In this document: piece by piece, positions 14,777 to 61,498 of the stretch | Position numbering within the stretch: position 1 is the stretch's first letter | Layout: every line of letters starts with the position of its first letter | Assembly (NCBI GenBank): GCA_030549335.1 | Contig: CM060196.1 | Location: forward strand, 72,438,139 to 72,502,138 | DNA length: 64,000 bases | Origin: Pontederia crassipes | Taxonomy: Eukaryota > Streptophyta > Magnoliopsida > Commelinales > Pontederiaceae | Reading direction: 5' to 3' | The notes under the pieces: generated by a model | What the model was told of the DNA's origin: nothing | Databases searched by the model: none | The model's input: only the letters and a program-made list of their open reading frames with translations | Program-made: the position numbers and the translations under genes

Positions 14777-17460
14777 TTACCTCCCGTCATTAAGTACGCT
14801 GAATGCTGTCCCACTGTACTTGTCATAATATGGTGAGCTGACCGTATTCGTGGAGCTTGGTGACTCAATGGACGCAGTCGTCATCTGTGCAGGGTTATAC
14901 TCTATAGCTTCTGTGACAGAGTTGTTGCCCATGTTGGCCAACCTTTGAAGTCGTTCTTCCACCTCCTTCATGGTTGGTCTCATAGCTCCGTTCACATTCA
15001 AGCACTGTTCAAGTAACCGCCCGAGCTCATCGACCTGTTCCGCCGTGATCTCATTTATGATATTCGCGTCTATTATGTCTGCAAATCCGTTTCCCCGTGA
15101 TTTTTCCTTAAATATGGTGACCAAGCTCCCATATTCTTCTGATATCACCTTCCTCCTCGTAAAGAGTTCCAAAAGGACGACGGCGAAACTGTACACATCA
15201 CTCTTCTCTGTTACTTGCCCCGTCTGCAGGCATTCTGGATCAATATAACCTCTCGTTCCCTGTATCTCCATGGAATTCTGATCCTTGGATGAGAGCAGAG
15301 CGCCTCCAAAGTCGGAAAGTATCGGCCTGAACCCGTCGCCTATGAGAATGTTTGGAGGCTTCATGTCCCCATGAAGGATTTGCGGCTCGGCGTCTGTGTG
15401 TATGTACGCAAGTGCTGATGCAGACTCCACTGCGATCTTAAAGCGGATGCTCGACGGCATCTTGACATTTTCTTTATGGATGTAATCATGAAGACTCCCG
15501 CCACTGACGAACTGGTAGACCAACATGGGGACTTCGACCTCTAAACAGCAGCCGAGTATCTTGATCACGTTCTTGTGATTGAGCAACGATACGATGTACA
15601 TCTCCTTTGCGAATTCTTTCCTCTGTTCCTGGTTTGTGTGCTTGGATTTCTTAATGGCAACTGTTTTCTTGTCGTCAAGTTCTCCTTTGTAGACAGTGCC
15701 GAAGCCCCCCTGGCCCTGTACTAAGCTACTGTCGAAGTTTCTTGTTGCCTTTTCCATCTCCTCCTTCTTGAATATTTTGAAGTTGACTCCCTGATGCGCG
15801 TTTATTTGTTCTCGCAGCAACAGTCCTCCGTTTTCTTCAAAACATCTTCGTTTAGCTCTCATGAGCTTTGTCCTTTCATATACCCAGAATATTGTGGCAA
15901 GTACAATGACACAACTTATGACACCTGGAATTAGTAATATATGTAATTATAGGAATCAATAGTTTTCTTGCGTGGGCGATAATTTTGTTGTAATAAAGAG
16001 AAGCTGGTGAACTATTTTTTATGATCAAATGATTATGCAATAAGCTACTTAATTGGCTAATGTCAAAAATCACAAAGAAAGATGTGAATTGCTGGAGATC
16101 ATATCAGAATCAGTAGGCTTTTTCATGTTGCTGTTCTGTATACAGGCGAACATATGAAAGCCTGATCGAGTCTTCATTTCACGAAAGGAAAGACAAAAAG
16201 GGAACAAGATTATTCTGATTTCTCAACTGCTCCAAGACAGAAACATAAGAATCTTTTGGGATAACAGAACAAAATTAATTGAAAAATAGAAGTAAAAAAG
16301 TCATACCAACGGCGATCTTTATTGCAGCCGACGCCGTTCGCTTCTGGATGTCCGGTATGCAATTTGCTTCGCGGGGATTGCCGTGTGTTCCCGGGGGGCA
16401 TGAACAGTCATATGAACCCAACGTGTTGCTACAGACCCCATGGCACGGATACAACGCGCCACCAACAGTACACTCATCGATATCTGCATGTGCGAGTGCA
16501 TCCATGATTTCGTGAGAACCAGCACATGTACGCAGGTTACAGCAGATCAGCCGTACCAAAATTTTAAAAAGTAAACAATTTATGTATACCGTGACATCCG
16601 TCCTCAAGATAAGGATTTCCTTGGAATCCAGCGGAACAGTTGCAGATGTAGCCGGGGCCGTTGGTGGAGTCGAAGCACTCACTGTGGCGGCTGCGGCACG
16701 CTTGCGCCTCTTGACAAGTGCCGTTCCTGATGGCCCAGTCCAACACTAATTGAACGCGCCCATCGTGCTTACGGTAGAAGTTGTCGCGGACCACGTCTGA
16801 AGGGTCGAGCCGAAACCATTCTTCGTCTGCCACGAAGGAATAGCTGCAGGGACTGAAGCTTACGATGGAGCTGTGATCAAAGGCATCGTCGAAACTGACG
16901 TCGTAAAAGTCCAGGCCCTTGGGAATGTCGGTCTGGCAGCAACCTCTCCCGTTGCACTTCCCAGTTGTTTCTACGTCAGTCTCGTTTCCGCAGAGAGAGA
17001 GGCACCCACTCATGTAGTCTTTCTCGCTTCTTCCCGTGACGTAGGCGAGGGTTGAGCAGCCGATGGCCGTGAACTTGTTACGGGCGCTCGAGAACATATA
17101 GGGTGTCGTTGAGAAGTCTATGCTCCGGTAGTCCGACGCCTCCTTGCCGGACTTGTTGTAACATGCATAGGAGATGTATTTGTAGATACGCACTTCGCCG
17201 GTGATCAATGATATGTTGATCATCTCGATGTTGCCGTGACCTTTGTACAAGGATCCGTTCTCCGCGCATGTGAGTTGGAAGCCTTCCATAAAACAACCAT
17301 CGCCGATGCCAAAAGGGTAGGGGATGCTGATATTGCCGCATCTATCAGGACAATTGGGGGAGATGGCGATGTTGCCGCCGGCAACGGCAGTCGACGTCAT
17401 CATTACGGCCACGAGAGCAATCAACCCTAGACGCTCTAATGGTGAGCTAACCTTCGACAT
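14777..17460 (-). CDS. Wall-associated receptor kinase, three exons, intact
   Basis: Exons 17460-16590, 16483-16307 and 15924-14777 join in frame (871+177+1148 = 2196 nt, 731 aa). Both introns have GT...AG borders in phase 1. Residues 1-29 form a signal peptide. CPDRCGNISIPYPFGIGDGC (37-56) opens the GUB_WAK pectin-binding domain. An EGF-like repeat ends exon 1, and exon 2 holds the calcium-binding EGF (DIDEC...). A membrane helix spans about 347-366. The kinase (about 400-690) has GQGGFG at 420-425, Lys441 (VAIKK), HGD at 534-536, Asn541 and DFG at 554-556. HGD in place of HRD makes it a non-RD kinase, a class often tied to immune receptors. WAKs are known to bind pectin or its fragments at the plasma membrane and signal in growth and defence. 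I chose the ATG at 17460 because it starts the signal peptide; an in-frame ATG at 17532 would bury it. The exon junction recreates the canonical CHDIDEC. Confidence 0.95.
15925..16306 (-). other. Intron 2 of the wall-associated kinase gene
   Basis: The donor GTATGAC begins at 16306 and the acceptor TTCCAG ends at 15925, splitting a glycine codon (phase 1) at the start of the membrane helix. This position, between the EGF exon and the helix-kinase exon, is the usual WAK gene structure. The apparent peptide at 15876-16073 is only an overlap of intron and exon. Confidence 0.9.
16484..16589 (-). other. Intron 1 of the wall-associated kinase gene
   Basis: The donor GTATACA begins at 16589 and the acceptor CATGCAG ends at 16484. 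It splits the codon between CH and IDEC in phase 1. The 177-nt EGF exon that follows is a symmetrical 1-1 module, typical of EGF exons. Confidence 0.9.
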
Positions 17461-17645
17461 GTTTGCCGCTTGAGGTTGTTTGTTCACCGTGAAATAAAAA
17501 CTTAACGCTTGCATGCCGCATGCATGTGGCATTTAAAGCACCGTGTGACGTGTGTACGCGTAGTCTGTAATTTTGGGTGGAAATATAAGTTAATTCAAGT
17601 CAAGTCAATCATGAAGTGATGTTTCTGACTATGTCAAGTCAAATT
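17461..17645 (-). promoter_or_regulatory. Proximal promoter of the wall-associated kinase gene
   Basis: On the minus strand a TTTAAAT box lies at about 17532-17540, roughly 75 bases before the chosen ATG. CACACGTCAC (ACGT core, TGACG on the other strand) sits just upstream. Three W-box-like TTGACT motifs occur at 17598-17603, 17603-17608 and 17637-17642. WRKY and TGA factors are known regulators of defence genes including some WAKs. Their use here is inference from motifs. Confidence 0.45.
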
Positions 17646-34380: not shown

Positions 34381-34971
34381 CAAGTCAATGCAAATCAATA
34401 ATTAATCAAGTCCTTGTTATAAACAAATTAAGTCGCTCAAAGTATTATAGTCAATGGTGGTCAGTGCACCATTAACATCGATCAAGAATGTTGAGTGGTC
34501 GATTGACTTAACATCTTGCATAATATATATAGTGATGATAGGAAAATTATAGAATAATTTATCACTACCATTCGAATATGGTGAAAATCCTCAGTTACTC
34601 CGCTCCAATTGGTCACTGTTGGCAAAGGTCAAGTGCTCGCATGCGCATGTCTAAAAAATTTGCGAGATATTAAGAAAGAGAGATCAAGCGCTTCAGAAGC
34701 ACCGGGTGAATGCTTCGACCAATTGGTGCACAATGATAAATCTATGCCAATATGATAAATCTCATGAGTCATAGTTTGATCCGAACAAATGAATCAAATC
34801 CCATTTGTTATTAAAATAATATTATCGTTAGTGACTTTGAAGATATAATACGAATGGAAGTGTAAAACTATAAGAAAATATAGTTGAATAATAACCTATT
34901 AATAATCACTTTAAATTAATTATTTTAAAAAAGAAAATTATTTGTTATTATTTATTTTTTTTATGTATGAT

Positions 34972-37900
34972 CATTTTCATTTTATTATTTTCTCCTTTAA
35001 AAATTCTGTGACCATGAAATTTTCCTCTTCGTTAAATTTTTTTTTTCATTTTCTCCACCTATTTGGTATCAACTTTGCTTATTATTAATTTTTCGTTTCA
35101 ATTCACCCTTCCTAATTTACTTTAGTCCTTATTTTCCTCCACTTTCCTGTCTTCCACCTTTCTTCTTTAAACATTTTCCATGTATTCACTAGTTTCATTG
35201 TTTTAAGAAATATGTAACTAAAATGTCTATCCTTCAAATATTTTTCCTTACTTTCAATATATTCACTATTTTTATATTTTTTAAAATGTATAATTAAATT
35301 GCTCATCCGAATCCCACAGCTTAGGCGATGATCGTTCTCTCCGGTGACCCCTCTCTCTCTTTCCACTCTCCATCTCTCCCCTCTGTCTCTCTCTCTCACT
35401 CTGACGACTTCGATGGCCATCCTCTCCGACGACCTCCTTCTCTCTCTCACTCTCTCGACTCCGACAACTCCAGCGACCTCCCATGGCTCCAGCAACCCTC
35501 TTCCTCTTCCTGTCTCATGATTTTAGCCGAAGGAAGATCATGGTTTTCTGTCGGGAGGTTTTTGCGATGAGAAGTTTTCTAATGGTTTTCTTTCGCCAAA
35601 AAAGTCGTCGGAAAATAACATTTTCAATGAACTTTTGGGATTTGTGATGGATAGGACCGTCAATTAATTTGACTTTTTTGTAGTGAATAACCATTCATAA
35701 AATATATTAACTCCTTGATACAAGGAATACATTATTTTTCATTTAACAAAAAATATCTAGAAGTTCAATGCAACTTCCTCCTTAGCATTGCAATATGAAT
35801 TAATTAAATCGGAGCATCTTATTGATCACACCCCACGGTCTTAACAAAAGTTTTCTTGCATGATGAATATCCTTTGGTAGAAGAAATTGTTAAATTATTA
35901 TATGACCCTCACTCCATCTCATTGTTATATTCTGAAGCATTATTGTGCACTTTATGCTCATTAATTAATCTATACATCTGCAAGATGTCGATATATGTAT
36001 CTCATGCTTACCAATGATTGAAATGTATTTTTTTATTTTATTATTCACTTATTGAGCTATGAATGTTAAAAAAATATTGTTTCTATGCGTTTCTGATTGT
36101 GCATGACGGTGATGATGTTGCACGCGGATAATCCTTGGGTGCTGCTTTGCTTTATTATCATTTGCTTTCTTTCAAACTTTATCGGGATTAATGAGTTTGA
36201 CAAACTTTGTTATGCTATAATATTTTTTGGGCAAATAACCGTTCAAGATTAATATTACATTCAAGGAATTATATAATTGATAGCGTCCCCTATATTATAT
36301 TTTGTAATGTGGCAGAATTCAATTTGGGATGCAGTGATAACGTGTAACTACGACGACTTTGTATCATTTAATTAAGTGTACACTTCAAATTGCTATATAC
36401 GTTTAAAAACTTAATCAAAGGCCCTGTTATAAACAAGTCGCTCAAAGTATTATAGTCAATAGTGGTCAATGCACAATTAACATCGATCAAGTATGTTGGA
36501 TGATCGATTGGCGTAACTTCTTGCATAATATATATAGTGATGACTTGAAAATTTATAGATTAATTTATCACCACTATTCGAATATGGAGAACAGCCTCAG
36601 TTACTCCACTCCAATCATTGGTCACTGTAGGCAAAAGGTCAAATGGTTGCATGCGCATACATTTGCGAGATAATTTAAGACAAAAAGTTCAAGCATGTCA
36701 GAAGCAACTGGTGAACGCTTCTACCAATTGGAACCCAGTGATAAATTTATACCAAATATGTTTGAAAATAGATCCCTAGTGAGTCATAGTTTGTTCGGTA
36801 CAATTGAATCAAATCACATTTGTTATTAAAATAATATTATCGTTAGTGACTTCGAAGATGTAATATAGAGATGAAATTTTGAACGGATGCATGGTCAGCA
36901 TCCAAAATTCGTCCCAGTCCAATTCAGCACAGACACGGTTCACGCATGAAAAATAAGTTGTATCCATGCCATTTCATGCCGAGTCACCTATTTGCACTGT
37001 GGACACGACACAGGCCGAATACGATGAACGTGGATTACGTCAACACGGACGCGCACAAACACGGCCCGCGCTGAAATCAGTGGCCCGTGTTACTTATTTG
37101 AATGAAAATTGTAATTTGACAACACGAATACGAATGATTTGACAAGATGAACGGTAACATAAGTAGGATAACTTTAAATGATCTGTTGAATGATCGATTG
37201 ACGTAACTTCTTGCATAATATATATATAGTGATGACTGAAAAATTTATACATTAATTTATCACCACTATTCGAATATGGAGAACAGCCTTAGTTACTCAA
37301 CTCCAATGATTGGTCACTGTAGGCACAAGGTCAAATGGTTGCATGTGCATACATTTGCCAGATAATTTAAGACAAAAAGTTCAAGCACGTCAGAAGCACC
37401 CGGTGAACGCTTCTACCAATTGGAACCCAATGATAAATTTATACCAAATATGTTTAAAAATTGATCCCTCGTGAGTCATAGTTTGTTCCGTACAATTGTA
37501 TCAAATCCCATTCGTTATTAAAATAATATTATCGCTATTCACTTTGAAGATGTAATATTGTTAAGAATATAAAATAAATGATGTTGTATTTTTTTAACGG
37601 CTTAAGCTTTTAGAAAAAGTATTTAGCACAACAAATTTTACATGTATCGAAGTCAGAGGTCAAGAGTTCGAATCTCGTTAAGTTTTTTCTAAAAAATAAT
37701 TTCCTTCATTAGTTTTCGACGTGTTGGACTTGGGATAGATCAAAAGTTGTCAGCAGCCCACACGTGAGGACGAGTGTTAAGAATATAAAATAAATGAGGT
37801 TGCTCTTTCTAACGGTTTAAACTTTTAAAAAAAGTGGTTAGCACATTAAATTTAACAAATATAAAGATGGAATTTCGAACGGGCGTATGGTTCGGCATGT

Positions 37901-38640
37901 CCAAAATTCGTCCCGGTCCAATTCAGCGCGAACCTCGTCCACGGGTGAAAAATATGTTGTATCCATGCCATTTCGTGCCGGGTCATCCATTTGCACTGTG
38001 GGCACGACACGACCCGGACACGACGAATACGAATTAGGTCAATGCGGACCGCGCACAAATATGGTTCGCACTGAAATCAGACTTGTGTTACTTATTTGAA
38101 TGAAACTCACGATTTAACAATACGAATACGAATGATTTGACAAGATGAACACTGACGTAAGGAGGATAACAGGACTGTTTAAATGAACGTGGGTCGTGTT
38201 TAATCCCTATAAAAATTCGCCGAATCTCTCCTCTTCTCTTCATTCAACCGCCCCTCACGGCCGCCTCACCCTCTCCCTCTCTCTCAATCTCTTTCCTTTC
38301 ACTATCAGCTTCTCATGTTCTCTCTCTCAATATCTTCTCTTTTCTCATTGAGCAACTAAGATAGCATTCTCACAACAATTATTATAGACCCATTTCCAAT
38401 GAAAATGTTGCATTTTGGCATTTGAAATTTACTAATTTACTTAGTATAACTTAGTTATAGATAGTTAAGTACTAATTTACTTGGTATAACTTAGTTATAA
38501 TAACTTAGTTATAGATAGTTAAGTACTAATGTACCGAATACAACTTAGTTATAATTTAGTATATAGTAAATATGTAGTATACTATCTATAGTACTATACT
38601 ACTAATACTATAATCTTATACTAATATGATATTCTACTAT
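34972..38640. repeat. Copy A of a 3.67-kb near-identical duplication
   Basis: The block matches 45022-48692 with an offset of 10048-10052 bases from end to end. There are only scattered single-base differences and a few short indels by eye. Left breakpoint: CATTTTCATTTTATTATTTT. Right breakpoint: ATTCTACTATTAT. Confidence 0.92.
37559..37857 (+). mobile_element. 299-bp TRIM/SMART-like LTR element (copy 1)
   Basis: Two direct repeats of about 83 bases, each starting TGTTAAGAATATAAAATAA and ending ...CA, flank an internal region. The internal region begins with a diverged initiator-tRNA primer site (TGTATCGAAGTC; copy 2 keeps TGTATCAGAG) and ends with a purine tract (GTGAGGACGAG). AATAT lies on both sides (37554-37558, 37858-37862). 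The sister module at 36861-36876 shows the empty site (GATGTAATATAGAGATG). It encodes nothing and would move only with help from an autonomous element. Confidence 0.88.
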
Positions 38641-39675
38641 TATATATAGTGATGACTTGAAAATTTATAGATTAATTTATCACCACTATTCGAATATGGA
38701 GAACAGCCTCAGTTACTCCACTCCAATCATTGGTCACTGTAGGCAAAAGGTCAAATGGTTGCATGCGCATACATTTGCGAGATAATTTAAGACAAAAAGT
38801 TCAAGCATGTCAGAAGCAACTGGTGAACGCTTCTACCAATTGGAACCCAGTGATAAATTTATACCAAATATGTTTAAAAATAGATCCCTAGTGAGTCATA
38901 GTTTGTTCGGTACAATTGAATCAAATCACATTTGTTATTAAAATAATATTATCGTTAGTGACTTCGAAGATGTAATATAGAGATGAAATTTTGAACGGAT
39001 GCATGGTCCGGCATCCAAAATTCGTCCCAGTCCAATTCAGCACAGACACGGTTCACGCGTGAAAAATAAGTTGTATCCATGCCATTTCATGCCGAGTTAC
39101 CTATTTGCACTGTGGGCACGACACAAGCCGAATATGAAGAACGTGGACTACGTCAACACGGACGCGCACAAATACAGCCCGCGCTGAAATCAGTGGCCCG
39201 TGTTACTTATTTGAATGAAAATTGTAATTTGATAATATGAATACTAATGATTTGAAAAGATGAACAGTAACATAAGGAGGATAACTTTAAATGATCATAG
39301 TATGTTGAATGATCGATTGACGTAACTTCTTGCATAATATATATATAGTGATAACTGAAAATTTTATATTAATTTATCACCACTATTCGAATATGGAGAA
39401 CAGCCTCAGTTACTCAACTCCAATGATTGGTCACTGTAGGCACAAGGTCAAATGGTTGCATGTGCATACATTTGCCAGATAATTTAAGACAAAAAGTTCT
39501 AGCACGTCAGACGCACCCGGTGAACGCTTCTACCAATTGGAACCCAATGATAAATTTATACCAAATATGTTTAAAAATAGATCCCTCGTGAGTCATAATT
39601 TGTTCCGTACAATTGTATCAAATCCTATTCGTTATTAAAATAATATTATCGCTATTCACTTGGAAGATGTAATAT

Positions 39676-39974
39676 TGTTAAGAATATAAAATAAATGATG
39701 TTGCTTTTTTTTAACGGTTTAAACTTTTAAAAAAAGTATTTAACACAATAGATTTCACATGTATCAGAGTCAGAGGTCAAGAGTTCGAATCTCGTTATGT
39801 TTTTATTAAAAAATAATTTCTTCCATTAGTTGTCCTCGTGTTGGGCTTAGGATAGATCAAAAGTTATCAGCAGCCCACACGTAAGGAGGAGTGTTAAGAA
39901 TATAAAATAAATGATGGTGCTCTTTCTAACGGTTTAAACTTTTAGGAAAAGTGGTTAGCACATCAAATTTAACA
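39676..39974 (+). mobile_element. 299-bp TRIM/SMART-like LTR element (copy 2)
   Basis: LTRs lie at 39676-39759 and 39892-39974, the primer-binding site TGTATCAGAGTC at 39760, the purine tract GTAAGGAGGAG at 39881-39891, and AATAT on both sides (39671-39675, 39975-39979). This is the clearest copy. It came here by duplication of the module, not by a new insertion, because flanks and target are the same as copy 1. Confidence 0.88.
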
Positions 39975-40756
39975 AATATAGAGATAGAATTTCGAACGGG
40001 CGTATGGTCCAACATGTCCAAAATTCGTCCCGGTCCAATTCAGCGCGAACCTGGTCCATGCGTGAAAAATAGGTTGTATCCATGCCATTTCGTTCCCGGT
40101 CACCCATTTGCACAGTGGGCACGACACGATCCGAACATGACGAACACGAACTAGGTCAACGCGGACTGCGCACAAACATGGCTCGCACTGAAATCAGACC
40201 CATGTTACTTATTTGAATGAAACTCATGATTTAACAATACGACTACGAATGGTTTGACAAGATGAACACTAACGTAAGGAGGATACCAGGACTGTGTTTA
40301 AATGAACGCGCGTCATTTTTAACAACAACAACAACAAAGCCTTATCCCACTAGGTGGGGTCGGTTACATGGATCATACGACGCCATTCCGCTCTATTAGT
40401 AACCAAACCTTTCGATATATTATTCACCAATAGATCTTGCTCTATTAGTTCGTCAAGTGTCCGCCTTGGCCTCCCTCTCCCTCTTTTAATCGGACTCTAG
40501 ATTATTTGATCTACTCTTCTTACTGGCGCATCTAATGGTCTTCTCTGAACATGACCAAATCATCTCAAACGATTATCTACCATTTTCTCACTAATAGGAG
40601 CCATTCCGACTCGTTCACGTATATGGTCATTCCTAATCTTATCTAATCTTGTATGACCACACATCCATCTCAACATCCTCATTTTGACTACCCCCACTTT
40701 ACGTTCATGTTGTCTCTTCATAGCCCAACGTTCACTACCATATAACACTGTTGGCC

Positions 40757-42367
40757 TTATAGCAGTACGATAGAATTTTCCTTTAACTTTATTGGGTACT
40801 TTTCTATCACAAAGAACTCCAGTGGCTTTCCTCCACTTACACCAACAGCTTGAATTCTATGATTAACAACGTCATCAATCTCACCATCTTGTCTTATAAT
40901 TGATCCTAAATATTTAAACTTTGTCACTTGAGGAATTATATCCTCCCCTAGCCTAACCTTCAAATCGTCTCTAAATTGTTTATTTATGAAATTGCTATGC
41001 ATATATTCTGTTTTATTCCTACTTAAACGAAAACCCTTTGACTCCAACGTATTTCTCCATATTTCTAATTTTATATTAATCTCTTCTCTTGAATCCGCTA
41101 AAAGTACTATATCATCCGCAAATAGCATACACTTAGGTACCTCCTCTGTGATACTCTCGGTTATAGCATCGATAACTAAGTTAAATAGATACGGGCTTAA
41201 AGTTGATCCTTGATGTAGGCCAATTCCTATAGGAAATTCATTTGTCTCACCTCCGGGTGTCCTAACCCTAGTCAATGCCCCATCGTACATATCTTGTATT
41301 ACCTTAATGTAGGCAACACTCACCCTCTTCTTTTGCAAGGCTTTCCAAAGTACATCCCTTGGTACCCGATCATACGCCTTCTCTAAGTCAATGAAGGCCA
41401 TATGTAAGTCTCTTCTCCTACTTCGATACTTCTCCATCATCCCCCTTAGTAAATAAATCGCCTCTGTAGTGGATCTTCCTGGCATGAACTCAAATTGTCT
41501 CTCAGAAATACTAGTCTCCATTCTCAATCTATGCTCAATCACTTTTTCCCATAATTTCATTGTGTGACTCATAAGTTTAATCCCTCTATAATTTGCACAA
41601 TTCTGAATATCCCCTTTATTTTTGTAAATAGGAACTAATGTACTTAATCTCCAATCATCAGGCATCTTTTTCGATCGTAAAATCTCATTAAATAGTTTAC
41701 ATAACCACAATACATATTTTTCTCCTAAATATTTCCAAACTTCAATCGGTATACCATCCGGTCCAACGACTTTACCATTCTCCATTTTCTTAAGAGCTTC
41801 GCTAACTTCCGAGACTCTAATTCTACGATAAAATGACCTATTAAGCTCACATTTGCTAAGTGTCAAGTCCTCCAAATCACAATGGAAACCTTCACATTCA
41901 TCATTAAATAGCTTATAGAAATACTCTTCCCACATGTTCTTAATATCTCCTTCATTAACTAAAACCTTGCCAACTTCATTTTTTATGCATCTTACTTGAT
42001 TCAAATCTCTCGACTCCTTCTCTTTATTCCTTGCAATCTTGTAAATCCTTTGTTCACCAGCCTTTGTCTCTAACTCCTTATAAAACCCCTCATATGCTTT
42101 AGCACGAGCATCACTAACTGCCTTCTTAGTCTTCCTTTTCGCCAAACGGTACTTTTTCCAATTGTCAGAACTATTGTCCAAATGTATCGTCTTGAAACAA
42201 TTCTTCTTATTACACACCTTTTCTTGGACCTCCTCATTCCACCACCAAGTCTTCTTATCTCGTGGTCTAAAACCTTTTGATTCTCCTAAAATGACTTTAG
42301 CAACCATTTCAACCTTTTTTGCCATATTCTCCCACATGATACTAGCATCTCCTTCTAACTCCCACAC
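40757..42367 (-). pseudogene. RTE LINE reverse transcriptase (536-residue open frame)
   Basis: The open part includes GPDGIPIEVWKYL, the NYRGIKLMSHTMKLWE block, QFEFMPGRSTTEAIYLL, FIDLEKAYDRVPRDVLW and CMLFADDIVLLAD (FADD at residues 416-419), in the standard order of RTE reverse transcriptases. A single frameshift near 40850 diverts the C-terminus; the correct frame resumes and is open again at 40560-40748 (LYGSERWAMKRQHERK). Upstream, an in-frame stop near 42430 separates it from the endonuclease. The catalytic residues are kept, so inactivation is recent. Confidence 0.9.
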
Positions 42368-42478
42368 ATTTTTCTCTAATAACTTACTTCTAAAAGTCTC
42401 TCGCTTCTCCCCCTTTAACTGTCACCACTTGATCTTTCGATCAAAAACTGTTCGAGATTTTGGTTTTATACATTTCAT

Positions 42479-43444
42479 TTACATATCAAGAACTAACAAT
42501 CTATGTTGTGTAGTCACCCCATGCCCACGAATTACTTTGCAATTAGTACAACGACTTTTATCAGTATTTCTTGTCAAGAAAAAATCGATTTGAGACCTAT
42601 GAGTTCCACTTTTATATGTGATTAAATGTTCCTCTCTCTTCCTAAAGCAAGTGTTGATAATCTTAAGGTCGTATGCTAAAGAAAAATCAATAATAGTTTG
42701 TCCTTCCTCATTCAACTCCCCAAAACCAAAACCACCATGAACCTTTGCATGTGGTCCTGCCTCTTTACCAACATGTCCATTAAGGTCTCCCCCAATATAA
42801 ACTTTCTCGGTTGTTGGTATACTTTCAATCAAACCCTCCATATTTGCCCAAAACTTCTCCTTGAGATGTGATTCTGCTCATACTTGGGGTGCATATGCAC
42901 TAATAATGTTCATAGTCTCATTTCCAATAATTACTTTCACGGATATGATTCGATCCTCAATCCTTTTAACTTCCACAACATTCTTCCTCCATTTTGCATC
43001 CGCGATAATACCAACACCATTCCTTTCATTTACCTTACCTGTGTACCAAAGTTTGGAATCATTTAACCTAATTTCTTTACTTCCCTCTCATACCCATCTA
43101 GTTTCTTGCAAGCATAAGATATTAATCTTACGCTGGTCCATTACTTGTGCCACCTCGAGGCGCTTTCCATTCAACGTCCCAATGTTCCAAGAACCTAATC
43201 TGACCTTAGTCTCATAAACTAGCTTCTTTAACCGCCTCTGTCCATTAGAGTGCGGTAGCCCTTGCTCATTTAACACTGCATTCAGACGAGGATGCAACGG
43301 CTCTTGCTCTCTTATCAATGTACCCGAGCTGTACAGCGCGTTACTTACGGGTAATGATCTAGTATTAACACAATATATTCGTTGATCCATGTTCATAAGA
43401 TTCGATAGGATTTTATGCCGGCTGTCGGGGCCTAACACAACCAT
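42479..43444 (-). pseudogene. RTE LINE endonuclease, with point stop codons
   Basis: 43088-43444 contains VRLGSWNIGTLNGKRLEVAQ and ILCLQETRWV, the N-terminal endonuclease motifs, and stops at TGA just before 43090. 42479-42841 contains YIGGDLNGHVG, GFGFGELNEEGQTIIDF and SQIDFFLTR, the central and C-terminal motifs. Stops near 43090 and 42875 read TGA where related elements have GGA-like codons, so only a few point changes have broken the frame. Confidence 0.85.
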
Positions 43445-43950
43445 CCTCTTTTATCCGGGCTTGGGACCGGCTATAAAATATAGGTGGAGTTGCGTCATGT
43501 TTAAACCCTATAAAAATTCGCCGAACCTCTCCTCTTCTCTTCATTCAACCACCCCTCACGGCTGCCTCACCCTCTCCCTCTCTCTCAATCTCTCTCCTTT
43601 CACTATCAGCCTCTCATGTTCTCTCTCTCAATCTTCTCTTTTCTCATTGAGCAACTAAGATAGAATTCTCACAACAATTATTATAGACCCATTTCGAATG
43701 AAAATGTTACATTTTGGCATTTGAAATTTACTAATTTACCTGGTATAACTTAGTTATAGATAGTTAAGTACTATTTTACTTGGTATAACTTAGTTATAGT
43801 AACTTAGTTATAGATAGTTAAGTACTGATTTACCGAATACAACTTAGTTATAATTTAGTATATAGTAAATATGTAGTATACTATCTATAGTACTATACTA
43901 CTAATACTATAATCTTATACTAATATGATATTCTACTATTATGAATTATA

Positions 43951-44914: not shown

Positions 44915-47610
44915 GAATTATACAATAAATTATATATAATATATTTATTAAATAGTTACCAGTTAATTTAATTATATATAATATATTTATTAAATAGTTA
45001 CCAGTTATTAAATATCCGATTCATTTTCATTTTATTATTTTCTCCTTTAAAAATTTTGTGACCATGAAATTTTTCTCTTCGTTATATTTTTTTTTCATTT
45101 TCTCCACCTATTTGGTATCAACTTTGCTTATTATTAATTTTTCGTTTCTATTCACCCTTCCTAAGTTACTTTAGTCCTTATTTTCCTCCACTTTCCTGTC
45201 TTCCACCTTTCTTCTTTAAACATTTTCCATATATTCACTAGTTTCATTGTTTTAAGAAATATGTAACTAAAATGTCTATCCTTCAAATATTTTTCCTTAC
45301 TTTCAATATATTCACTATTTTTATATTTTTAAAATGTATAATTAAATTGGTCATCCGAATCCCACAGCTTAGGCGATGATCGTTCTCTCCGGTGACCCCT
45401 CTCTCTCTTTCCACTCTCCATCTCTCCCCTCTGTCTCTCTCTCTCTCTCACTCTGACGACTTCGATGGCCATCCTCTCCGACGACCTCCTTCTCTCTCTC
45501 ACTCTCTCGACTCCGACAACTCCAGCGACCTCCCATGGCTCCAGCAACCCTCTTCCTCTTCCTGTCTCATGATTTTAGCCGAAGGAAGATCATGGTTTTC
45601 TGTCGGGAGTTTTTTGCGATGAGAAGTTTTCTAATGGTTTTCTTTCGCCAAAAAAGTCGTCGGAAAATAACATTTTCAATGAATTTTTGGGATTTGTGAT
45701 GGATAGGACCGTCAATTAATTTGACTTTTTTGTAGTGAATAACCATTCATAAAATATATTAACTCCTTGATACAAGGAATACATTATTTTTCATTTAACA
45801 AAAAATATCTAGAAGTTCAATGCAACTTCCTCCTTAGCATTGCAATATGAATTAATTAAATCGGAGCATCTTATTGATCACACCCCACGGTCTTAACAAA
45901 AGTTTTCTTGCATGATGAATATCCTTTGGTAGAAGAAATTGTTAAATTATTATATGACCCTCACTCCATCTCATTGTTATATTCTGAAGCATTATTGTGC
46001 ACTTTATGCTCATTAATTAATCTATACATCTGCAAGATGTCGATATATGTATCTCATGCTTACCAATGATTGAAATGTATTTTTTTATTTTATTATTCAC
46101 TTATTGAGCTATGAATGTTAAAAAAATATTGTTTCTATGCGTTTCTGATTGTGCATGACGGTGATGATGTTGCACGCGGATAATCCTTGGGTGCTGCTTT
46201 GCTTTATTATCATTTGCTTTCTTTCAAACTTTATCGGGATTAATGAGTTTGACAAACTTTGTTATGCTATAATATTTTTTGGGCAAATAACCGTTCAAGA
46301 TTAATATTACATTCAAGGAATTATATAATTGATAGCGTCCCCTATATTATATTTTGTAATGTGGCAGAATTCAATTTGGGATGCAGTGATAACGTGTAAC
46401 TACGACGGCTTTGTATCATTTAATTAAGTGTACACTTCAAATTGCTATATACGTTTAAAAACTTAATCAAAGGCCCTGTTATATACAAGTCGCTCAAAGT
46501 ATTATAGTCAATAGTGGTCAATGCACAATTAACATCGATCAAGTATGTTGGATGATCGATTGGCGTAACTTCTTGCATAATATATATAGTGATGACTTGA
46601 AAATTTATAGATTAATTTATCACCACTATTCGAATATGGAGAACAGCCTCAGTTACTCCACTCCAATCATTGGTCACTGTAGGCAAAAGGTCAAATGGTT
46701 GCATGCGCATACATTTGCGAGATAATTTAAGACAAAAAGTTCAAGCATGTCAGAAGCAACTGGTGAACGCTTCTACCAATTGGAACCCAGTGATAAATTT
46801 ATACCAAATATGTTTAAAAATAGATCCCTAGTGAGTCATAGTTTGTTCGGTACAATTGAATCAAATCACATTTGTTATTAAAATAATATTATCGTTAGTG
46901 ACTTCGAAGATGTAATATAGAGATGAAATTTTGAACGGATGCATGGTCAGCGTCCAAAATTCGTCCCAGTTCAATTCAGCACAGAGACGGTTCACGCATG
47001 AAAAATAAGTTGTATCCATGCCATTTCATGCCGAGTCACCTATTTGCACTGTGGACACGACACAGGCCGAATACGATAAACGTGGATTACGTCAACACGG
47101 ACGCGCACAAACACGGCCCACGCTGAAATCAGTGGCCCGTGTTACTTATTTGAATGAAAATTGTAATTTGACAACGCGAATACGAATGATTTGACAAGAT
47201 GAACGGTAACATAAGTAGGATAACTTTAAATGATCTGTTGAATGATCGATTGACGTAACTTCTTGCATAATATATATATAGTGATGACTGAAAAATTTAT
47301 ACATTAATTTATCACCACTATTCGAATATGGAGAACAGCCTCAGTTACTCAACTCCAATGATTGGTCACTGTAGGCACAAGGTCAAATGGTTGCATGTGC
47401 ATACATTTGCCAGATAATTTAAGACAAAAAGTTCAAGCACGTCAGAAGCACCCGGTGAACGCTTCTACCAATTGGAACCCAATGATAAATTTATACCAAA
47501 TATGTTTAAAAATTGATCCCTCGTGAGTCATAGTTTGTTCCGTACAATTGTATCAAATCCCATTCGTTATTAAAATAATATTATCGCTATTCACTTTGAA
47601 GATGTAATAT

Positions 47611-47909
47611 TGTTAAGAATATAAAATAAATGATGTTGTATTTTTTTAACGGCTTAAGCTTTTAGAAAAAGTATTTAGCACAACAAATTTTACATGTATC
47701 GAAGTCAGAGGTCAAGAGTTCGAATCTCGTTAAGTTTTTTCTAAAAAATAATTTCCTTCATTAGTTTTTCACGTGTTGGGCTTGGGATAGATCAAAAGTT
47801 GTCAGCAGCCCACACGTGAGGACGAGTGTTAAGAATATAAAATAAATGATGTTGCTCTTTCTAACGGTTTAAACTTTTAAAAAAAGTGGTTAGCACATTA
47901 AATTTAACA
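47611..47909 (+). mobile_element. 299-bp TRIM/SMART-like LTR element (copy 3)
   Basis: It has the same structure and the same AATAT target duplication (47606-47610, 47910-47914). It is the copy B counterpart of the element at 37559. Confidence 0.88.
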
Positions 47910-48257
47910 AATATAAAGATGGAATTTCGAACGGGCGTATGGTTCGGCATGTCCAAAATTCGTCCCGGTCCAATTCAGCGCGAACCTCGTCCACGGGTGA
48001 AAAAAATGTTGTGTCCATGCCATTTCGTGCCGGGTCATCCATTTGCACTGTGGGCACGACACGACCCGGACACGACGAACACGAATTAGGTCAATGCGGA
48101 CCGCGCACAAATATGGTTTGCACTGAAATCAGACTTGTGTTACTTATTTGAATGAAACTCACGATTTAACAATACGAATACGAATGATTTGACAAGATGA
48201 ACACTGACGTAAGGAGGATAACAGGACTGTTTAAATGAACGTGGGTCGTGTTTAAAC

Positions 48258-48415
48258 CCTATAAAAATTCGCCGAATCTCTCCTCTTCTCTTCATTCAAC
48301 CGCCCCTCATGGCCGCCTCACCCTCTCCCTCTCTCTCAATCTCTTTCCTTTCACTATCAGCCTCTCATGTTCTCTCTCTCAATATCTTCTCTTTTCTCAT
48401 TGAGCAACTAAGATA
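48258..48415 (+). promoter_or_regulatory. TATA box and pyrimidine-rich leader (also at 38205 and 43508)
   Basis: CCCTATAAAAATTCGCCGAA is followed by about 100 bases of CTCTCCTCTTCTCTTCATTC-type leader in all three copies. This looks like the promoter and 5' leader of a transposon. No open frame of useful length follows, so it is probably an orphan promoter. Confidence 0.45.
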
Positions 48416-48703
48416 GCATTCTCACAACAATTATTATAGACCCATTTCGAATGAAAATGTTGCATTTTGGCATTTGAAATTTACTAATTTACTTGGTATA
48501 ACTTAGTTATAGATAGTTAAGTACTAATTTACTTGGTATAACTTAGTTATAATAACTTAGTTATAGATAGTTAAGTACTAATTTACCGAATACAACTTAG
48601 TTATAATTTAGTATATAGTAAATATGTAGTATACTATCTATAGTACTATAGTACTAATACTATAATCTTATACTAATATGATATTCTACTATTATGAATT
48701 ATA

Positions 48704-51880: not shown

Positions 51881-52137
51881 AAAATTTGATGCGTTAATTA
51901 GTTTTTCTAAAAGTTTAAATTATTAAAAAAGTAATATCATTCATTTTATATTTTTAATATCTCTGGCCCAATTTATCATGTGAACAACAAAGAAAGAAAA
52001 ATATATTTCTAATAAGAGTCTAACGATGTTTGAACCTAGAACGCTTTTATATTACGTTAAATTTGATATACTAATTAGTTTTCCTAAAGACTTAAGCAAT
52101 TAAAAATAGCAACGTCATTTATTTTATATCCTTAACA
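51881..52137 (-). mobile_element. Diverged, inverted TRIM-like copy at a different site
   Basis: On the minus strand it begins TGTTAAGGATATAAAATAA and ends with a second related repeat near 51881-51965. It interrupts an S3 module between ATCCCTC and GTGAGTCAT, which are contiguous in the other modules. This shows the family has moved more than once. The target duplication is eroded. Confidence 0.65.
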
Positions 52138-54693: not shown

Positions 54694-56085
54694 TCATTTT
54701 CCAAGCTGTTTCGTAAAATACAAAACGGAAAAGATTGCCTCAAGCGCATTGAGGACTAGCAAAGGAACTCCAACCAAACAGGATACGACAGACCACGGAT
54801 TGCTGAAGTAGTCACGCATCAACCTCGCCCTCCAAGCATGCCAATATACTCTGTTGTAATTGTCGATGTCCACGAACAAATCCTTGAACTTGTGGTCATG
54901 GTAGTTCAAGCGACAACAGTTGGAGAGCTGGTTGAAGAAGTGTGTTGCCTCTTCATTGCTGGGAAGCATCCTCTCCAAGATACCCTTGCGCATGAGCAGC
55001 TCGACGTCCTCCGGCGTGTCCACCAGGTGATCCATCACTATCGCGTAACTGCTCACCTCCTGGTCTTCGTCTCCGATGCACTGCTCGAAGGCCACGAGGT
55101 TGGCCAAAAGGCAGTTCATCTCAAGATTGAGCATGATGAGCGGGATCTCAAGAACCCCGTCCCAGGTGAATGATATGTCGAACATGCCATCGCACGATGG
55201 CTTCTTCTTCAACTCCACGCCGGCGTCATGTAGCCATGTAGCCGATGGGATCGAACGAGGTGGGTCTCTTTTTGTGTCGCCGAGTTTCTTCCCAACTCTG
55301 AAGAGTATGTAAGAAAAGAGGCTGCAAATTAATTTAAAAATGTTCAGGTATCCGAGCAGCCCTCCGAGTGGCGCACGAGATTTGACTGGTTGTGTGACGC
55401 GAGAGCATATGCAGTGATGGTAAAGGTCAAGCAAGTGATGATAATGCATCTCTTTTATAGACGTGTGCTTGCTTGGCATCGTAATGAGAAACAACTGATC
55501 GATCAACTCAAACATGTTCGGATGCCCGTAGAAAAGGTGGGGATGGATTTCAGCAAAATGATCATATAGAGTCAGAAGAATGAAGAAAGGAATTTGGTTT
55601 TCTAGCAGCAGCAGATCGTGAATTATCATGTCTTGGAACCACTTGCTTCCACAAACTCCGTTGGACTCAGACTTAATTTTCTTGAGTATAAGTAGGAACT
55701 GGATGATGAAGCACCCATCTTTCAGCAACATCTGCACGAACTCCTCGCTTTCGAGTTTAGCACTGTGGAAGTAGCATTTTCTTGCTTTGTCCTCCAGCTC
55801 CTTCAGCATCGAGATGCAACTCTGCAGGTGCGCCTCGGTCGGCAGGAGCTCGCTCACGAATTTGATCTTTACTTTCTCCATGTCCGCGAACTTGGGATCG
55901 GCGTGATGGTAGGGGCCTATGGACACTGCTTGAGGATGGAACAGGTGCTCCCGCCTGCTCTTCACATGCGGCGGGACTCGGAAGATGGTGCACCCTGATT
56001 CCGACGATTTTGCTGATCTGTTCAACTCAGCAACTTGTATCTTGATGGTGGTGAGTAGGCCGTCCGCAGCCATCATGTATTGCAC
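54694..56085 (-). CDS. DUF247 (UPF0481) family protein, single exon, intact
   Basis: A 463-residue open frame has the full DUF247 pattern. Near the N-terminus are IFRVPPHV (34-41) and PQAVSIGPYHH (51-61), the family's 'yP..vSIGPyhh' signature. DGCFIIQFLL and then DMIIHDLLLLENQIPFFIL (about 152-170) give the conserved 'rDllLLENQiPffvL' block. A variable middle follows, then SCDGMFDISFTWDGVLEIP and the FFNQLSNCCRLNYHDHKFKD-type C-terminal block. A hydrophobic helix at about 433-457 ends the protein, giving a short C-terminal tail and a likely membrane anchor. The usual family length is 400-550 aa. Biochemical function is unknown; in grasses, DUF247 genes are tied to the S and Z self-incompatibility loci, but the family is large and this link should not be assumed here. 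The start could also be Met4 or Met5. Confidence 0.95.
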   Translation of the reverse strand: MQYMMAADGLLTTIKIQVAELNRSAKSSESGCTIFRVPPHVKSRREHLFHPQAVSIGPYHHADPKFADMEKVKIKFVSELLPTEAHLQSCISMLKELEDKARKCYFHSAKLESEEFVQMLLKDGCFIIQFLLILKKIKSESNGVCGSKWFQDMIIHDLLLLENQIPFFILLTLYDHFAEIHPHLFYGHPNMFELIDQLFLITMPSKHTSIKEMHYHHLLDLYHHCICSRVTQPVKSRAPLGGLLGYLNIFKLICSLFSYILFRVGKKLGDTKRDPPRSIPSATWLHDAGVELKKKPSCDGMFDISFTWDGVLEIPLIMLNLEMNCLLANLVAFEQCIGDEDQEVSSYAIVMDHLVDTPEDVELLMRKGILERMLPSNEEATHFFNQLSNCCRLNYHDHKFKDLFVDIDNYNRVYWHAWRARLMRDYFSNPWSVVSCLVGVPLLVLNALEAIFSVLYFTKQLGK

Positions 56086-56156
56086 GTCCTCTCTAGTTTC
56101 TCCCCCTCGATACTAAAGGAAATGAGCCAATATTGGTTTCTTCTTCCATCAAATGC

Positions 56157-59616: not shown

Positions 59617-61498
59617 CACTACAAGAAAATCACGATTTTCCGACGGATAATTTTCGACGGTTCTAAATCCGTCGCTATTTGCGACGGATTTTTCGACGAT
59701 TCTGTTTCCGACGAATTTTTTGACGGTTATGACCGTCTGAAATAATTTATATTATTATTTAATTTTTCGACGATTAGGAACGTCGATATTTTCGACGGAT
59801 AACCATCCGTCGTAATTTTCGACGACTTTTCCGACGGTTATGATCGTCGGAAATAAAAAAAATTAAATTATGTATTTTTAATATTATTATTAAATTTTTT
59901 CGACGGATTTTCCGATGGTTTTGACTGTCGGAAATAAAAAAAATTAATTATATAATTGGTTATATTATTATTTAATTTTTCGACGGTTAGGAACGTCGAT
60001 ATTTTCGACGGATATCCATCCGTCGCAAAATCCGCCGCAATTTCCGAAGGTCGTAACCGTCGGTAAATCCGTCGCAATTACCGAGGGATATCCAAACCGT
60101 CACAATTACCGACGGTTTTGACCGTCGGAAATAAAAAAATTAATTATATAATTGGTTATATTATTATTTAATTTTTCGACGATTAGGAACGTCGATATTT
60201 TCGACGGATATCCATCCGTCGCAAAATCCGACGCAATTTCCGAAGGTCGTAACCGTCGGTAAATCCGTCGCAATTACTGACGGATATCCAAACCGTCGCA
60301 ATTACCGACGGTTTTGACCGTCGAAAATAAAAAAATTAATTATATAATTGGTTATATTATTATTTAATTTTTCGACGGCTAGGAACGTCGATATTTTCGA
60401 CGGATATCCATCCGTCGTAAAATCCGCCGCAATTTCCGAAGGTCATAACCGTCGATAAATCCGCCGCAATTTCCGACGGATATCCAAACCGTCGCAATTA
60501 CCAACGGGTTTGACCGTCGGTAAATATTACCGTCGGTTGAAACCGTCGGTAAAATAAAAAATAAATATTATATATAACTAAATAAAATAAATTTTTTTAT
60601 TATTTATGTTTTCGACGGCTGAAACCGTCGGTAATTAAAATTTCGTTATCCCGCGCTTTTTTTTCCCTTTTTCCCGCTTTCTTTTCAAATTTTTTCCTTT
60701 ATATATTTTCCCTCCTCCCTCTTCTCTCTCCCTCCTCCCTCCACTCCTCTCTCTCTCCCTCCTCTCCTATCTCCCTCTCCCGGCCGCGAGCACGGACGCC
60801 GGACGTCGGTTACGCCGCGAGATCGGCCTCTCCCGCGCGCCGGACGCCGGCGACCCTCCCACGCCGGACGCCGGCGACCCTCTCCCGCACCGGCGTATCT
60901 CTCTCTCCCGCACTGCTGTCGGCCGGATCCGGCGCCGGCATCTCTCTCTCTGCCGTTGGCCGGATCCGGCCGTGACCGTTCGGATCCGGCAGCCAGGCGG
61001 CCAGTTCCGGCCTCCAGCGGACGGATGGGTATCCGTCGGAAATATCGACGTTCCTAACCGTCGAAAAATAAAATAATAATATAACAAATTTTATAATTTA
61101 TTATTTTCCTTTCCGACGGTCGTAACCGCCGGAAAATTCGTCGCAAATTGCGAAGGATGGGTATCCGTTGGAAATATCGACGTTCCTAACCGTCGAAAAA
61201 TAAAATAATAATATAACAAATTATATAATTTATTATTTTCCTTTCCGACGGTCGTAACCGTCAGAAAATCCGTCGCAAATTGCGACGGATGGGTATTCGT
61301 CGGAAATATCGACATTCCTAATCGTCAAAATACAAAATAATAATATAACAAATTATAAAATTTATTATTTCATTTTCGACGGTCGTAACCGTCGGAAAAT
61401 CTGTCGAAAATTGAACCGTCGCAAAATCCGTCGCAAATTGCGACGGATTTCAAACTATCGGAAATAGCCCGTCGGAAAATGACAATTTTCTTGTAGTG
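59617..61498. mobile_element. 1.88-kb non-autonomous CACTA element with CGACGG repeat arms
   Basis: The ends are CACTACAAGAAAATCACG (59617) and ATTTTCTTGTAGTG (to 61498). The left arm holds a tandem repeat of about 195 bp (from about 59940, 60140 and 60335) and the right arm one of about 125-130 bp (61020-61375). Both are dense in CGACGG / CCGTCG in alternating orientation. The middle has a TATATATTTT box, a CT-rich leader (60705-60780) and a GC-rich core (60780-61025). No transposase is present. The flanking trinucleotides (ACA and AGT) do not match, so the target duplication is lost or an end has been rearranged. Confidence 0.85.

Follow-up and report, generated by a model that had tools for sequence, protein, structure and literature searches.

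A 299-bp TRIM/SMART-class LTR retrotransposon of Pontederia crassipes, its spread by insertion and segmental duplication, and a candidate copia helper

Which element mobilizes a given terminal-repeat retrotransposon in miniature (TRIM) is mostly unknown. In a plant survey, a coding partner was not found for 278 of 289 TRIM subfamilies, partners having been sought by similarity to the TRIM sequence (PMC4717578). Elements of the TRIM/SMART class as short as 233 bp have been published (PMC4717578), and SMART/FRetro129 of grasses measures 292 bp (PMC3281118). We analyzed a 64,000-nt stretch of P. crassipes DNA (C14:72438139–72502138 of the 1.13-Gb host genome, G000; hereafter the window) that carries copies of a 299-bp element. 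This element is a TRIM/SMART-class non-autonomous long terminal repeat (LTR) retrotransposon, because LTR, primer-binding site (PBS), internal region, polypurine tract (PPT) and second LTR are all present within 299 bp, and because it occupies many independent sites with 5-bp duplications. A length near 300 bp had been placed at the lower limit for LTR elements in the original prediction, made from the letters of the window; the two published lengths contradict that view.

As an element it is unremarkable, a further group of copies within a class already known. It is shorter than 1000 bp, has two direct LTRs with TG..CA ends, a 5-bp target duplication, a PBS and a PPT, and with 299 bp only it has no coding capacity. 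The combination of tRNA-like A and B boxes within the LTR, by which Helenus/TRIMp3 elements are recognized, was not found. By description only, the element is most readily compared with FRetro129, for which corresponding features are given, namely 85-bp LTRs, TGT..ACA ends, 5-bp duplications, a PBS, a PPT and TATAAAA in the LTR, together with a proposed copia helper, FRetro64, whose LTR is dissimilar (PMC3281118). The hint of a helper was a common internal region in that case, whereas here it is an integrated chimera. Size class, structure, 5-bp duplications and tandem arrays with common LTRs are likewise those of plant TRIMs; in contrast to the situation described below, the partners found in the plant survey had an LTR in common with their TRIM (PMC4717578).

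Three 299-bp copies are present on the plus strand of the window, where repeats of ~83 bp with TG..CA ends had been predicted: copy 1 at 37559–37857 (5′ LTR 37559–37642, internal region 37643–37774, 3′ LTR 37775–37857), copy 2 at 39676–39974 (5′ LTR 39676–39759, 3′ LTR 39892–39974) and copy 3 at 47611–47909 (5′ LTR 47611–47694, 3′ LTR 47827–47909). A diverged, inverted copy 4 is found on the minus strand at 51881–52137 (5′ LTR 52055–52137, 3′ LTR about 51881–51957). The direct repeats of copies 1–3, 84 bp at the 5′ and 83 bp at the 3′ side, start with TGTTAAG and end with ACA. Within copies 1, 2 and 3 the two LTRs are identical at 71, 71 and 72 of 83 aligned sites, respectively, and those of copy 1 match each other with a BLAST E of 2.9e-18. 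As predicted, AATAT immediately flanks both ends of each copy (37554–37558 and 37858–37862; 39671–39675 and 39975–39979; 47606–47610 and 47910–47914), and three uninterrupted sister modules hold a single AATAT with continuous sequence on either side (36862–36866, 38974–38978 and 46914–46918).

Directly 3′ of its 5′ LTR, copy 2 carries the PBS-like sequence TGTATCAGAG (39760–39769, plus strand), one base shorter than the common genome form TGGTATCAGAGC. The match was scored against what we take to be the complement of the plant initiator tRNA, and of 42,654 window positions sampled, no more than one or two match equally well. The predicted initiator-tRNA-like primer site is strong in copy 2, weaker in copies 1 and 3 (48 to 173 of the 42,654 positions score as well), and at background level in copy 4, which was scored one base out of register. 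Copy 2 also contains a B-box- or T-arm-like sequence of putative function past the PBS (GTTCGAATC, 39783–39791, plus strand), and the purine tract noticed earlier is read as AAGGAGGAG ahead of its 3′ LTR (39883–39891, plus strand). No stop-to-stop frame of at least 110 aa overlaps any of the window copies.

Copies 1–3 are one insertion multiplied by segmental duplication, because they have the site, AATAT and 5′-LTR-specific bases in common and form a single clade in the tree (support 100/99). The duplicated unit that carries the TRIM, 34971–38643, recurs at 45021–48695 with 98.9% identity, and 36526–38203 recurs at 38638–40322 with 94% identity. Copy 4 is a separate insertion. It lies in a different position, at which other aligned modules are uninterrupted, so that the claim of a different target was right as to the site; the module family is nevertheless the same, and the target duplication is not intact, with no clean 5-bp repeat. 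The flanks of copy 4 would fit TCGTG with 5 nt lost at one end. Its LTR–LTR identity, 75.9%, is the lowest among 44 aligned rows, and for that reason this 257-bp copy is taken as the older one. The window would then have received one TRIM insertion at AATAT, later copied twice via segmental duplication, and a second, older TRIM insertion at 51881–52137.

Two further features touch this region. The AATAT target coincides with a module boundary, from which either the spacer 36862–37172 or other sequence (after 34850 and 52161) continues. A non-LTR (RVT_1) element on the minus strand, at 40323–43490, interrupts the tandem unit in its second copy.

When the 299-bp unit was compared with the whole genome, at least 55 matches on 17 contigs were obtained, a lower bound because 40 of 2101 first-look candidates were scored; 37 stretches surrounding the best genome matches were retrieved for comparison. 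Among 40 full-length places (matches covering 286 or more profile positions, with two duplicated pairs and tandem members included), the 5-bp flanks were identical at 18 and agreed at 4 of 5 positions at 8, giving 26/40 with at least 4/5. In a control of 1560 mismatched flank pairs, 5/5 matches made up 0.19% and 4/5 matches 1.6%, and eight shifted controls yielded zero 5/5 matches. Pairs of places with common flanks are duplicates (L023/L024 and L025/L040). The copies otherwise lie mostly in differing flanks, each with its own 5-bp duplication, and are not always found inside the same module. The independent duplications on other contigs bear out the original prediction that the family has moved more than once. 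LTR–LTR identity ranges from 75.9 to 98.8% over the 44 rows (98.8% in three of them), a spread suggesting that the TRIM family moved over a long time and partly recently. Apart from copy 4, the aligned copies (43/44) are 294–305 bp long.

Alignment of the copies, with L024, L040 and window copies 1 and 3 left out as duplicates, gave 40 kept rows. The exact 12-mer PBS TGGTATCAGAGC was found in 17 of them, and 35 carry its first 11 bases, TGGTATCAGAG, with at most one edit. The PPT/LTR junction pattern, with up to two changes allowed, was present in 32/40 rows, as was a T-arm-like GTTCRAA past the primer site. LTR similarity, PBS and PPT thus hold across the genome copies, in agreement with the class named originally. 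Special selection on the T-arm block was not supported, the mean majority fraction being 0.91 there and 0.92 in the next internal block.

An A-box-like motif at LTR position 52 and a B-box-like motif at position 108 are separated by a gap of 44 nt, the latter motif being outside the LTR and beyond the PBS. The pattern is kept in 17/40 copies; when three copies were shuffled, it was reached in 8 to 11 of 4000 trials, and 2 of 1276 window tiles also reach it. Its consensus was picked after the motif had been seen, and the tRNA-like pattern is suggestive only. A longer stretch of similarity to the initiator tRNA (of presumed sequence) could account for the T-arm-like pattern as well as an RNA polymerase III (Pol III) promoter could. 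Sense-strand T-runs appeared depleted (0.5 observed vs. 1.4 expected per copy), but this is not significant, because copies of common descent count as about one sequence. No tRNA was detected by ARAGORN in the window, and Rfam gave no match to a tRNA or another RNA family, including the 5S rRNA that is a trait of Cassandra LTRs, in window positions 36400–40500 (E up to 1) or in 11 copy loci (E up to 10).

During replication of LTR elements, plus-strand strong-stop DNA has the primer site at its end, and through this site it anneals to the minus strand. An exact 21-mer covering the TRIM LTR end and the primer site occurs at 154 genome places, and its backward control at none. At 9 of 100 places listed among the 154, compared by eye, the GG of the TRIM leader is missing; a separate count of TRIM-LTR/PBS junctions lacking this GG came to 71. 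These nine junctions were sorted into a chimera on contig C1 (L067), a complex chimera (L076), a nested insertion (L099), four TRIM copies (L100–L103) and two unassigned places (L097 and L098).

The C1 chimera (C1:29682841–29687759, junction at C1:29687680) consists of a TRIM LTR that is 15 nt short, the primer site, a copia leader, copia segments and, at the 3′ end, a 193-bp-type LTR that is unlike the TRIM LTR. Copia gag, integrase and reverse-transcriptase domains are found in separate open segments, and ATGAT is present on both outer sides. The junction, at which about 14 bp at the PBS are common to TRIM and copia, is single in the genome even when one mismatch in 24 bases is tolerated. 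Four copia relatives, on C2, C4, C8 and C10, have the 193-bp LTR at both ends (188 to 193 of 193 positions identical), and three of the four have a 5-bp duplication. Among the papers listed in the literature searches, none describes, by its title or abstract opening, a TRIM/copia chimera with its junction in the primer site. The nearest likeness is with complex LTR insertions of Triticeae, fusions flanked by 5-bp duplications that were ascribed to template switching; those contain three LTRs with similar outer ones, whereas the C1 chimera contains two, which differ from each other, and its foreign LTR is joined through the PBS (PMC1950507).

The simplest account of this one clean case would be that TRIM and copia cDNAs met in a single particle and a plus-strand transfer took place between them. 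TRIM RNA would be packaged in a Ty1-copia particle, initiator tRNA-Met would prime its reverse transcription, and copia integrase would insert the cDNA. TRIM strong-stop DNA would pair with a copia minus strand at the PBS (intermolecular plus-strand strong-stop transfer), giving the layout of the chimera; such a transfer would need TRIM and copia cDNAs in the same particle. Because the C1 chimera joins a TRIM LTR and a copia LTR at a common PBS, the copia family with 193-bp LTRs (C2, C4, C8 and C10) is one helper candidate. Taken together, we consider it very probable that (i) the element is a TRIM/SMART-class non-autonomous LTR retrotransposon, presumably mobilized by copia particles; (ii) one insertion at AATAT was duplicated within the window; and (iii) a copia family is a candidate helper. 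The C1 chimera makes the helper question testable: a TRIM LTR combined with an unlike copia LTR and a target duplication indicates a helper of a kind that similarity searches would overlook, and the combination of TRIM LTR, PBS and foreign leader is a simple screen that could be used on other genomes.

Several observations weigh against this joint reading. A duplication of at least 4/5 is lacking at 14/40 places; 9 of the 14 are in tandem-TRIM loci (L014, L021, L025, L033, L037 and L040), and 5 are single TRIMs (L016, L019, L026, L035 and L036). The copia LTR resembles the TRIM LTR only in the first bases (by eye), and the helper link depends on one clean chimera. At L076 (C3:24146698), a TRIM LTR and primer site are followed by ~156 bp of leader from a different LTR family, that family's LTR end and then a TRIM; the junction is complex and the 3′ end truncated, so that an outer duplication is unreadable. 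L099 (C6:42364075), considered as a chimera, fits a nested insertion, since its foreign part starts like another LTR and recurs, several times in pairs about 3.1 kb apart. L097 and L098 are not countable as chimeras.

It could be argued that the 299-bp unit is not mobile and merely belongs to a larger segmental repeat, as a single module family holds all four copies of the window and the same AATAT flanks three of them. Copies on other contigs, however, have different flanks and different 5-bp duplications, and copy 4 is at another site in the opposite orientation; the independent target duplications rule out segmental repetition as the sole explanation, and we give it next to no weight. A tRNA-derived SINE (short interspersed nuclear element) with terminal repeats acquired by chance would account for the A-box-like motif at 52, the B-box-like motif at 108 and the 44-nt gap between them. 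The 83-bp LTRs, PBS, PPT and 5-bp duplications speak against it, as does the failure of ARAGORN and Rfam to report a tRNA in the regions covered, and this origin is extremely improbable too.

Two alternatives concern the chimera and its meaning. DNA recombination between two integrated elements over the 14 common PBS bases would place the event outside a particle; only about 14 bp are common at the junction, and recombination of neighboring LTR elements is the usual account of complex insertions (PMC1950507). Insertions of independent origin, once fused, would not be expected to carry the same duplication on both sides, and for that reason ATGAT on both sides, a match of 0.2% chance in the mismatched-pair control built with TRIM flanks, argues against recombination, which we consider unlikely. 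A more substantial possibility, though somewhat less likely than not, is that the TRIM is normally served by an unseen copia family whose LTR resembles its own, the chimera being a rare cross-packaging. Published TRIM/partner pairs have LTRs 79–98% identical (PMC4717578), and at L076 a second copia family is also joined to a TRIM LTR at the PBS. In contrast, the top-scoring copia families did not qualify as TRIM partners: 20 loci were examined, 3 without such a PBS, and none of the 17 PBS-bearing loci had the TRIM LTR end, so that the autonomous partner sought in the original prediction was not found among them. This is a weak argument, with 150 scored of 16,717 first-look reverse-transcriptase candidates.

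Going beyond transfer in a copia particle, the TRIM might have a split tRNA-like Pol III promoter, with the A box at the 5′ LTR end and the B box beyond the primer site, and a conserved LTR T-run, at 49 and again at 265, that would end the transcript, so that start and stop would produce a short terminal repeat; it would exploit more than one copia family with unrelated LTRs, with the primer site as almost the only recognition signal, and leave PBS-joined, LTR-swapped chimeras. We regard this scheme as a long shot. A- and B-box-like motifs are also known from the TRIMp3 elements Cassandra and Helenus, as is a 3′-LTR T-run that might serve as a Pol III terminator; here, in contrast to TRIMp3, the B-box-like motif is outside the LTR beyond the PBS, and Pol III use is putative (PMC10886601).

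The L076 insert was wrongly taken as coding gag; it is the leader and LTR of another copia family, and its foreign pieces occur elsewhere in normal order, spanning ~4.8 kb at C7 and enclosing RVT_2. L100–L103, considered as chimeras, are TRIM copies with changes or deletions. The foreign part of L098 is found at 2 genome places, L098 included, and L078 has a TRIM LTR and leader with both sides cut off (up to 6 kb of flank viewed). In L099 (G000:C6:42363990–42364200), the TRIM is broken 5 nt past the 12-nt primer site by an apparent LTR start.

Tandem TRIM arrays were seen at L033 (G000:C12:76660500–76665500), L025 and L021, with a spacing of about 215 or 299 bp and some with common LTRs; such arrays are already published as TA-TRIMs. 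At L046 (G000:C13:61282800–61292700), three successive copia reverse-transcriptase matches with long open frames are spaced by 4582 bp, and the two units compared are identical over 4543 bp. Elsewhere in the window, the minus strand carries an open frame with a full DUF247 domain (54694–56112) and wall-associated-kinase-like gene pieces with kinase and GUB_WAK_bind domains (14777–17532). Tandem arrays of the CCGACGGT type at 59909–60526 and 61020–61413 are inverted, flank about 0.5 kb and may be DNA transposon ends.

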